From the IMG/VR virus record IMGVR_UViG_3300025687_000332, positions 1 to 23,650 of that record: a DNA stretch of 23,650 bases. One strand, written 5' to 3'. Below, in pieces: positions 1-23,018 of this stretch. Below the pieces are notes generated by a model that saw only the letters and a program-made list of their open reading frames with translations, did no database searches and had not been told where the DNA came from. This stretch comes from a virus. Within the stretch, counting starts at the first letter, position 1; the number at the start of each line of letters is the position of its first letter. Both the position numbers and the translations under genes were made by a program.

Positions 1-135
1 ATCTTCGATGGCACGGTCCAGTCTAGGTTTTAGGGTCGCTTCAAATTTGCGGCGCTGGATTTCCCGCTGTACTTCGTCCCAGGCAGAACGTGTACTGAAA
101 CGGAAAAGCCAGCGACCGTCCGGTGGGATCAGTCC
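1..135 (-). CDS. Orphan open frame, likely -1 frameshift extension of the upstream small protein (partial, runs off window)
   Basis: In the -1 frame relative to the 49-residue gene upstream, the sequence is open from 216 to the window edge. The part after the slippery site begins GLIPPDGRWLFRFSTRSAWD and continues with a charged, helix-like stretch (QREIQRRKFEATLKPRLDRA). It looks like real protein in composition, with W, F and R/E/K mixed as in an amphipathic helix. Over the whole open stretch of 72 codons there is no ATG, GTG or TTG, so it has no usual start of its own. The simplest reading is that ribosomes enter by a -1 shift at A AAA AAG (141-135). Alternatives are an undercounted A in the homopolymer, which would make one continuous gene, or non-coding chance. 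Function unknown. The end of the frame lies outside the window. Confidence 0.45.
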
Positions 136-278
136 TTTTTTGCTTTCAGGCTGCGGAGTGCAGTGAACAGCAGTTGGATCACACTGTTGTCTTTCAGGCT
201 TGACATACCGATCAGCTCAGATGCTGCGGCAACCACAACCCAGAAAGCAGGGTGGGCAAGGATTTGTTCGATGTGCAT
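129..278 (-). CDS. Small hydrophobic conserved phage protein, 49 residues
   Basis: ATG at 278 to TGA at 129 encodes a 49-residue protein starting MHIEQILAHPAFWVVVAAAS and ending SLKAKKD. Residues 11-25 are strongly hydrophobic (AFWVVVAAASELIG), and a second amphipathic segment (IQLLFTALRSL) precedes a basic tail. It resembles small proteins I recall near the tail and lysis genes of cyanophages, but I know of no assigned function. It lies 27 bases after the 81-residue membrane protein and is probably cotranscribed with it. A membrane-associated lysis or accessory role is inference from hydrophobicity and position. The C-terminus may be extended by a -1 frameshift, described separately. Confidence 0.75.
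   Translation of the reverse strand: MHIEQILAHPAFWVVVAAASELIGMSSLKDNSVIQLLFTALRSLKAKKD
135..141 (-). promoter_or_regulatory. Candidate -1 ribosomal slippery site A AAA AAG
   Basis: Read on the minus strand in the frame of the 129-278 gene, codons GCA AAA AAG contain the canonical X XXY YYZ heptamer A AAA AAG, two codons before the TGA stop. This is the heptamer known from dnaX-type programmed -1 frameshifting. The -1 frame downstream is open to the window edge. I did not find a convincing stem-loop at the usual spacing, which lowers confidence. A homopolymer sequencing error is the main alternative. Confidence 0.5.
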
Positions 279-305: not shown

Positions 306-551
306 CTAGCCTTTTTTGTTTTCAAGCACAGTGATGCGGCTGTCGTGGCGGTTAAGCCTTGAATAGATCGTCTTTCGGTCTTCCTTCATATCCTGATGCA
401 ACTCCTCCAATTTGCCAGCAATGCTTTCCACCGCCATTGTTAGACGGATGACGGCTTCGCGGGATTCGCTGGTGCGTTTGGTGAAGCCGGATATTGACAT
501 CCCAGCAATGCCAATGGAGGCACCTAAGACCGCTGCGTAGATTTCGATCAC
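306..551 (-). CDS. Small membrane-anchored coiled-coil protein (holin-like candidate)
   Basis: An 81-residue protein starting at GTG (551), preceded by purine-rich GGAGG and AGAGG stretches, the nearer about 6 bases from the start. Residues 4-23 form one transmembrane segment (IYAAVLGASIGIAGMSISG). Residues 28-78 are charged, heptad-like helix (ESIAGKLEELHQDMKED), ending in VLENKKG. One N-terminal membrane helix with a cytoplasmic or periplasmic coiled coil is seen in many phage holin-like and spanin-like proteins. Its neighbours are also small membrane proteins downstream of the tail genes, which fits a lysis cassette. The specific function is inferred; it could equally be an accessory membrane protein. 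Confidence 0.75.
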   Translation of the reverse strand: MIEIYAAVLGASIGIAGMSISGFTKRTSESREAVIRLTMAVESIAGKLEELHQDMKEDRKTIYSRLNRHDSRITVLENKKG

Positions 552-581: not shown

Positions 582-722
582 TTACCGGTTGAGGACAATG
601 AATTTTCCTGCTTGAGTCGTCAGTCTTTCATTCTGCTGAGACGCCAAGATCACAAGCAGTGCAAGGCCACCGGCAATACTGCTGCGAATTCCGGTATTGA
701 TACTAGTTCGTAAATTCTTCAT
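582..722 (-). CDS. 46-residue membrane peptide, translationally coupled to the upstream gene
   Basis: The ATG at 722 shares its A with the stop of the upstream gene (TAATG junction), and the frame runs to TAA at 582. The peptide begins MKNLRTSINTGIRSSIAGGL, giving a basic N-terminus, then a hydrophobic segment at residues 14-28 (SSIAGGLALLVILAS), then a polar tail ending GKFIVLNR. The overlapping start is the main support, together with the fact that it fills an otherwise empty 168-base gap between two genes. The shape, positive N-terminus plus one membrane helix, suits a small holin, antiholin or inner-membrane spanin subunit. No family is recognised. It is easily missed because of its length. 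Confidence 0.6.
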   Translation of the reverse strand: MKNLRTSINTGIRSSIAGGLALLVILASQQNERLTTQAGKFIVLNR

Positions 723-22297: not shown

Positions 22298-22957
22298 CCT
22301 TCTTGTTCAGTTCTGCGAGTGCGGCTGCTTCCATCACTTGGATGTCCTCTAGCAGCTCGCGGGGGTTCTCTACATCATACAGCGACATCAGTCCGCCCGC
22401 ACCAAGCAGCACCTCGTACTTCAAACCGACGTAGCCGCCCATCGTGACGTTCCACTGCGTTTGCATTCGCAGGAACATCATCAACGATTCCCAATTTTCC
22501 TCCCATACTTCGTAATGCTGCTCAGTCGGTGCAGCGGGACGCTGCGGCTTTAGTCCGAATGCCGCAGCGTCATCACTGGTCTTATCTTCTACTCTTTTGC
22601 CGCCTTTACACCAATACTCGACGGCACCTTTCAGTTTCCCAGACGGGCGCCCTCGAAGGTCTCGGTGTAAGCCTTAAGCACACCGCGAATCCAATACGGA
22701 TCGTCAGAGAATTCCTTCATCGTCGCCTGCGAAAATGGCACAGGCTTGCCATCCTCATCGTCGATGCCTTGCCATCCAGTTAACACAGCCTTGAGCAGCT
22801 CAAGGTCGCCTTTGTCGGCAAGCTTTTGAAACTCAGAGCGAGGCACACGCTTGAAAATCGCATCAAACGTAGACTCCTCAAATACACCGCCATCAGCAGG
22901 TTCTTCAATGGTTACAGGCCACTTAAAGGTCTTAACCTTCTTGCGAATAAAAGCCAT
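22290..22957 (-). CDS. Tail assembly chaperone G-T fusion by -1 frameshift (222 residues)
   Basis: Ribosomes shifting -1 at GGGAAAC (22640-22634) continue from 22634 to TAA at 22290. This adds 114 residues beginning LKGAVEYWCKGGKRVEDKTS and including EVWEENWESLMMFLRMQTQW, NVTMGGYVGLKYEVLL and LEDIQVMEAAALAELNKKDG. The W.VTMGGYVGL.Y segment is typical of the T part of siphophage G-T chaperones, which bind the tape measure and recruit tube subunits. The T frame has an ATG at 22484, but everything from 22634 is open and protein-like, so fusion is favoured over a separate 64-residue gene. The T frame overlaps the tape-measure start by 8 bases, exactly as in lambda-like phages. Confidence 0.85.
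22598..22640 (-). promoter_or_regulatory. Programmed -1 frameshift signal: slippery G GGA AAC plus downstream stem-loop
   Basis: On the minus strand the chaperone codons CTG GGA AAC TGA contain the heptamer G GGA AAC in the correct X XXY YYZ phase, directly before the stop. Seven bases later TGCCGTC (22626-22620) can pair with GGCGGCA (22604-22598) to form a 7-bp stem, one pair being U-G, around a 15-base loop. Heptamer, stop and stem at this spacing are the standard architecture of tail chaperone frameshift sites. The stem pairing was worked out by eye, not folded. Confidence 0.85.
22631..22957 (-). CDS. Tail assembly chaperone, G-like, unshifted product (108 residues)
   Basis: The ATG at 22957 gives MAFIRKKVKTFKWPVTIEEP, followed by DGGVFEESTFDAIFKRVPRS, EFQKLADKGDLELLKAVLTG, WQGIDDEDGKPVPFSQATMK and a C-terminus YTETFEGARLGN. 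The F.A.FKRVPR.EF ... L.GW.G..DEDG....FS pattern is a well-known tail assembly chaperone family. A TTG 51 bases earlier lies inside the terminator hairpin and would add unrelated residues, so it is rejected. It sits directly upstream of the tape measure and after the tube gene, as lambda G does. The stop TGA immediately follows the slippery heptamer. Confidence 0.92.
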   Translation of the reverse strand: MAFIRKKVKTFKWPVTIEEPADGGVFEESTFDAIFKRVPRSEFQKLADKGDLELLKAVLTGWQGIDDEDGKPVPFSQATMKEFSDDPYWIRGVLKAYTETFEGARLGN

Positions 22958-22992
22958 GAGTGAAAATAGACTCTTGCAAACTATACAGCAAT

Positions 22993-23018
22993 AAAAAAGG
23001 GACCGCAACGCGGTCCCT
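22993..23018 (-). terminator. Intrinsic terminator after the major tail protein gene
   Basis: On the minus strand AGGGACCGC, loop GTT, GCGGTCCCT form a perfect 9-bp GC-rich stem followed by a run of six T (TTTTTTATT). It lies in the gap between the tail-tube stop (23039) and the chaperone start (22957). A terminator at this place would keep tube protein expression much higher than that of the chaperone and tape measure, with downstream genes reached by read-through or by an internal promoter that I cannot identify. Confidence 0.9.

Follow-up and report, generated by a model that had tools for sequence, protein, structure and literature searches.

A conserved slippery heptamer points to programmed -1 ribosomal frameshifting in a small membrane-protein gene of cyanophages

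The heptamer A AAA AAG is used for -1 frameshifting by dnaX and by IS elements, where the two Lys-tRNAs slip in tandem. In E. coli this heptamer is highly slippery unaided and a stimulatory element is not obligatory for frameshifting on it; the dnaX and IS sites usually have an upstream Shine-Dalgarno sequence and/or a 3′ stem. Among phage genes, the tail chaperones of the lambda G/GT type have a short frame with an X XXY YYZ heptamer near its stop, where ribosomes slip and continue into a -1 extension. Two products can also be made from a single phage lysis gene without frameshifting, as in the dual-product holin gene of lambda, where S105 and S107 arise from two starts. Of the 2476 phage genes annotated as frameshifted in the PRFect survey, 2397 were tail chaperones and the other 79 hypothetical (PMC10885494).

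The gene described here encodes a 49-aa membrane protein and has features of each of these systems. As in the tail chaperones, a short frame closes with an X XXY YYZ heptamer just ahead of its stop, and the heptamer leads into a -1 extension, but the gene, the protein family and the genome position are all different. With dnaX and the IS elements it shares the heptamer and, as we propose, the tandem Lys-tRNA slippage; in contrast to them, no upstream Shine-Dalgarno sequence or 3′ stem shared by the family was found. The resemblance to lambda S105/S107 is that one small membrane-protein gene, here a candidate holin, would give two forms at a set ratio beside the endolysin. However, the lambda forms differ at the N-terminus through the choice of start, whereas those proposed here would differ at the C-terminus through frameshifting. 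The mechanism is already known, and what is new is the gene family and its likely role. We found no earlier report of a frameshift in this gene in the open-access literature searched, and the genome papers checked, which cover two of these groups, are silent on frameshifting (PMC6157547, PMC3751600).

The window, that is, the whole stretch of DNA analysed, spans an entire IMG/VR virus record, which is a 23,650-base fragment. The features of interest are collected in Table 1. A preliminary description of this DNA had claimed that the 49-residue gene carries an in-phase A AAA AAG at 141-135, with the AAG two codons before the stop, and that the -1 frame runs from 216 to the window edge as 72 codons free of stops and of ATG, GTG or TTG. 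Both claims were confirmed in the sequence. The ORF ends in ..GCA AAA AAG GAC TGA, with the single codon GAC separating the heptamer from the stop, and the open -1 run, which reaches base 1, is preceded by a TGA at 219-217. Because the record is only a fragment, the end of the -1 frame was taken from relatives. In Cyanophage KBS-S-2A and in locus L003 the last residues of the frame are ..DERETDPTD, which places its end about 81 codons past the slip and not shortly left of the window. Since the nearest homologues end there and 47 codons are present, about 34 extension codons should lie past the window edge. The 49-aa protein has two hydrophobic stretches, with a mean hydropathy over 17 residues that peaks at 1.6, and its PHROG match (E=1.3e-32) is to a family of unknown function.

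Table 1. Features of the 49-aa gene region in the window.
Feature	Coordinates	Strand	Remarks
0-frame ORF, 49-aa small membrane protein, candidate holin	129..278	-	PHROG 22542 family; TGA at 131-129
Slippery heptamer A AAA AAG	135..141	-	Same heptamer in 103/141 homologous loci, wobble bases invariant
-1 frame extension, KKGLIPPDGRWLFRFSTRSAWDEVQREIQRRKFEATLKPRLDRAIED...	1..141	-	47 of ~81 codons inside window; runs off edge
Upstream neighbour, 81-aa protein	306..551	-	N-terminal hydrophobic helix and coiled coil; PHROG 26178, E=1.8e-48

The 81-aa neighbour gives weak matches to hemolysin/XhlA-like, holin and Rz-like PHROGs. It is kept beside the gene in KBS-S-2A, S-CBS1, S-CBS3, S-B28 and WH11-B, and is possibly a second protein of a lysis cassette. 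Its gene ends in another AAAAAAG (317-311, minus strand) that reads AAA AAA GGC TAG; this run is not an X XXY YYZ-type -1 heptamer because it is out of phase. Directly upstream of the 81-aa gene lies a small hydrophobic ORF of 46 aa (582-722, minus strand).

The window also includes its own tail chaperone, a 125-aa ORF at 22631-23008 with the slip site G GGA AAC at 22640-22634 on the minus strand, directly before the stop. From there the -1 frame continues uninterrupted as far as the ORF that precedes the tape measure gene. This site is a built-in positive control within the window, and the phage probably has two -1 frameshift genes, the tail chaperone and the 49-aa gene. We considered and rejected the 49-aa gene as a tail chaperone, for it lies at the opposite end of the window, beyond the tail fibre genes, and not between the major tail protein and the tape measure.

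A search of IMG/VR with the 49-aa protein returned 80 close loci, and searches with other family members added T7-like, S-EIVl-like and other loci. After duplicates were removed, 141 distinct loci were analysed, mostly from metagenomic assemblies. Named isolates among the relatives are KBS-S-2A, the Synechococcus phages S-CBS1, S-CBS3, S-B28, WH11-B, 7B11-B and S-EIVl, and, more distantly, P60. A genome contig search gave one match, a metagenome-assembled contig that likewise has the heptamer and the extension. At 122 of the 141 loci the 0 frame contains a canonical X XXY YYZ heptamer in the correct phase and then stays open up to its stop. A AAA AAG accounts for 103 of these and G GGA AAG, the form used in the S-EIVl clade, where no run exceeds three, for nearly all the others; A AAA AAC (L250) and C CCA AAG (L239) each occur once. 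These four different X XXY YYZ heptamers occupy the same place in the gene, 0 or 1 codon ahead of the stop. One codon separates A AAA AAG from the stop at 92 loci and none at 11 (T7-like). About 119 of the 122 heptamers open the conserved -1 extension, and the median open run after the slip is 78 codons in the -1 frame and 11 in the +1 frame.

Chance does not produce this heptamer at such a frequency: the long ORFs of these phages contain 216 Lys-Lys pairs, and just 6 of them are written A AAA AAG, compared with its presence here at 103 of 141 loci. At those 103 loci the codon before AAA AAG specifies Ala, Gly, Pro, Ser, Thr, Gln, Glu, Val or Lys, and its third base is A in every case (103/103), against a background of 19-59% A-ending codons for the same nine residues in long ORFs of the same loci. 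Across 56 non-redundant genes, only the three heptamer codons have invariant third bases, while all other sense codons vary at the wobble position. Because this subset was chosen for having the heptamer, the association between heptamer and extension is the stronger statement. Scored by motif, the two occur together at 117 loci and are both absent from 18, with the heptamer alone at 5 and the extension alone at 1 (Fisher P = 2.5e-17, which is indicative only, as the loci are related). When the five heptamer-only loci were read by eye, L054 and L097 proved to have the extension, L181 is cut at the contig end, and L209 and L213 are truncated. The single extension-only locus, L079, does have the heptamer, with a TAG directly after the slip. 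The exceptions to the pattern are therefore L079 and the truncated extensions of L209, L213 and L235.

Two groups of relatives are natural controls at the level of sequence. The Oinezvirus-type clade (L131, L134, L143 and others) encodes the same Lys-Lys pair as CCA AAG AAA CAG and has neither heptamer nor extension; in its annotated member the following genes are on the opposite strand. The second group (L069, L241, L242, L245 and L248) ends in AAATGA and runs straight into an endolysin-type gene, again with neither heptamer nor extension.

The -1 frame carries the substitution pattern of a coding sequence. For 74 window-type extensions, the median pairwise dN/dS was 0.21 in the -1 frame versus 1.24 and 1.74 in the other two, indicating that purifying selection acts on the -1 frame only. 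Five codons differ between the window and L003; read in the -1 frame all five changes are synonymous, and read in the 0 frame none is. The comparison of the window with L009 gives 20 synonymous and 5 non-synonymous changes in the -1 frame as opposed to 2 and 21, respectively, in the 0 frame. Directly observed are the heptamer, the phase in which it stands, its conservation and the selection on the -1 frame. The conserved LIP.DGRW begins at the codon that overlaps the stop, which is CTG, TTG, TTA, CTA or, in T7-like phages, GTA, and the next codon is ATC, ATT, ATA or GTC. As these codons vary, no start codon is conserved at the junction, and since LIP.DGRW starts at the variable codon, the extension appears to be read from before any conserved start. 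The preliminary description had proposed programmed frameshifting as the best explanation and had asked for a heptamer and -1 frame kept with synonymous substitutions. The comparisons above provide that, and the conserved heptamer together with the selection on the -1 frame strongly supports the proposal. We conclude that the 49-aa gene very probably uses a programmed -1 ribosomal frameshift to make two products, a short membrane protein and, in smaller amount, an extended form of it.

The extension itself is built from exchangeable parts. Its N-terminal portion differs among relatives (LIPPDGRW..KF.ATL..RLD; WQRRLE.AIR.WWFE.TLPAKLD; LTLFSTKPRDAEA..; and VIAREAVDKAL in T7-like phages), and these varied portions share one C-terminus, LHIRAPW or LLGGxMSIHAPWxRD. 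An AlphaFold2 model of the extension (pLDDT 78, pTM 0.39) consists of a helix of 33 residues joined by a linker to a small hairpin. The extension had been described as a soluble, basic helical tail; this was partly right, as the helix is there, but the tail also has a small predicted beta-hairpin ending in [I/L]x[A/S]PW. No structural match for the model was found in the PDB, and sequence searches of Pfam, NCBIfam and the PDB returned a function for neither the 49-aa protein nor the extension.

Relatives of the extension occur outside the fusion. In S-CBS2, gp048 is the extension domain as a separate gene (hhalign profile E=1.2e-8) and gp049, directly before it, is related to the 49-aa protein (hhalign P 6e-5). 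The order and the relative frame are the same as in the window, but there are two genes, no heptamer and no fusion, and gp048 has its own GTG start overlapping the gp049 stop (TAGTG). Locus L265 is like S-CBS2, with the extension as a separate overlapping gene that begins at a GTG of its own and keeps the relative frame. Judged by the profile match, the extension domain is a real stand-alone protein in S-CBS2. PHROG 6464 / T4-GC 410 of cyanomyoviruses shares the C-terminal FGxxGWSIxIxxP motif and the preceding helix, but is a stand-alone in-frame gene. The link runs through S-CBS2 gp048 (E 3e-8; PHROG 6464 E 7.6e-9) and the T7-like extension (E 7e-4), the direct match of the extension profile to T4-GC 410 (E 0.005) being too weak alone. 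In the Kyanoviridae S-B68, DSL-LC02, DSL-LC03, S-CREM1 and B23, the motif ends an in-frame protein that in most has an N-terminal hydrophobic stretch, and in S-B68 and DSL-LC03 its gene is a separate one near the endolysin/lysozyme. The domain thus tends to be joined to, or to stand beside, a hydrophobic anchor, which fits a meaningful fusion. At L272 and L273, EHEPDGSxAQxLLGGxLxIK is also C-terminal in an unrelated-looking phage protein of ~180-220 aa, where from its sequence it behaves as if it were a portable C-terminal tag.

The position of the gene points to lysis. In KBS-S-2A, S-CBS1 and S-CBS3 the 49-aa gene follows the gene of the 81-aa coiled-coil membrane protein and comes directly before that of the endolysin/lysozyme. 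At 104 of 114 loci the next ORF begins within the extension, and in the siphovirus-like ones that ORF is endolysin-type. In the T7-like phages S-B28, WH11-B and 7B11-B the gene lies upstream of terS, immediately or one gene apart, which is where T7 has its holin gene 17.5. Since the gene is directly upstream of the endolysin in one group and in the T7 holin position in the other, a holin-type protein is the most likely identity of the short form, and we favor a role in lysis on the basis of this position and the membrane character of the protein. It matched no known holin family in Pfam, NCBIfam or the annotated PHROGs and so was not filed under any. More tentatively, we speculate that the long form is a minor fusion carrying the holin domain, which would time lysis or tether another lysis component to the membrane protein.

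A different function is compatible with frameshifting and competes solely with the functional half of our explanation. The frameshift could be real and the gene not a lysis gene, with the long form acting as a virion- or replication-associated membrane protein. We regard this as a less probable but serious possibility. It draws on the S-CREM1 stand-alone domain, which adjoins thymidylate synthase, on the T4-GC 410 proteins, which lie by uvsY or nrdB, on the Oinezvirus-type copy, which has no endolysin alongside, and on the lack of a match to a known holin family. However, an endolysin-type gene adjoins in most siphovirus-like loci, the T7 holin position is occupied in the T7-like phages, and the separate genes of S-B68 and DSL-LC03 are near endolysin/lysozyme.

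Other origins of the -1 frame product fit the data poorly. Termination-reinitiation would make the extension a separate protein, begun at a non-standard start at the stop and coupled to termination of the 49-aa frame. The AAGG ahead of the junction looks like a weak Shine-Dalgarno sequence, and in S-CBS2 and L265 the extension is indeed a gene of its own that overlaps the preceding one with the relative frame unchanged. The GTG starts of these two, however, have no counterpart in the window, where the -1 frame lacks any ATG, GTG or TTG, and the variable junction codons conserve no start. Reinitiation also leaves unexplained both the invariance of the heptamer wobble bases and the swap to the canonical G GGA AAG, and we consider it very unlikely. 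Transcriptional slippage on the A6-A7 run, giving frame-shifted mRNAs from which the fusion is made by ordinary translation, is highly improbable. Homopolymer runs can cause polymerase slippage and some loci have A7 (L035, L050, L081), but in this family the A run never goes beyond 6-7, its phase relative to the 0 frame is fixed, and one clade relies on G GGA AAG, with a longest run of 3. The last alternative, that homopolymer indels, which are common errors, or decay of a former fusion gene have split one continuous frame, has almost no probability and is already contradicted for the family as a whole: the phase is the same in ~100 independent assemblies and in the isolates KBS-S-2A, S-CBS1, S-CBS3, S-B28, WH11-B and 7B11-B, and conservation extends to the 0-frame protein as well as the -1 frame. 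This shared phase, together with a G GGA AAG clade that has no long A run, excludes assembly error as a general cause and so meets, at the level of the family, the doubt raised in the preliminary description over A6 or A7 in the reads. The continuous-frame homologue that it had named as counterevidence was not found among the relatives, S-CBS2 and L265 having a separate gene instead.

For programmed frameshifting, we propose the following sequence of events. The majority of ribosomes would terminate at the TGA of the 49-codon frame, producing the short membrane protein. A fraction would move back one base on A AAA AAG by tandem slippage of two lysyl-tRNAs, in competition with termination one codon ahead, and would then read ~80 more codons. 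The resulting protein of ~130 aa is predicted to have the same membrane anchor followed by a ~33-residue helix, a proline-rich linker and the small beta-hairpin with the [I/L]x[A/S]PW motif. That the ribosome itself performs the slip, and at what rate, we infer. The stop just downstream may help slippage by pausing the ribosome.

We found no stimulatory element common to the family. RNAalifold gave 0 pairs of a common 3′ stem on 33 aligned window-type sequences, and no upstream Shine-Dalgarno-like stimulator was found, the matches being mostly of 3-4 bases. The 60 bases after the slip were more structured on average than synonymous shuffles, with a mean z of -1.39 over 110 sequences that are not independent, and the window's own post-slip structure (z -0.1) is no stabler than its synonymous shuffles. 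Strong structure is predicted after the slip in some relatives only (L211, L196, L021), with z to -6. L211 has a very stable predicted hairpin after the slip site (-32 kcal/mol, z -6 versus synonymous shuffles), and this hairpin suggests that stimulators could be lineage-specific.

Reading the locus as a frameshift gene corrects the annotation of both the small gene and the extension. The small gene is conserved yet unannotated in S-B28 (L085, 2501-2644), where the extension is missed as well, and in S-EIVl (L089, 2504-2641). In S-CBS1 (gp23), S-CBS3 (gp22) and S-EIVl, part of the extension has been entered as a short hypothetical gene of its own. KBS-S-2A, S-CBS1 and S-B28 are isolates with culturable hosts, which makes the reading directly testable. 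If it is true, this gene would be a second widespread, conserved frameshift site in tailed phages, beside the tail chaperones (PMC10885494). We hypothesize, with some reserve, that the frameshift, kept in a lysis-cassette membrane protein across siphovirus, T7-like podovirus and S-EIVl-type cyanophages with extension modules swapped around one C-terminal motif, fixes how much holin is made relative to a holin-fusion regulator and in this way times lysis of the cyanobacterium. The ratio of the two membrane-protein forms could then control the timing of the cyanobacterial burst, and frameshifting would serve as a lysis clock.
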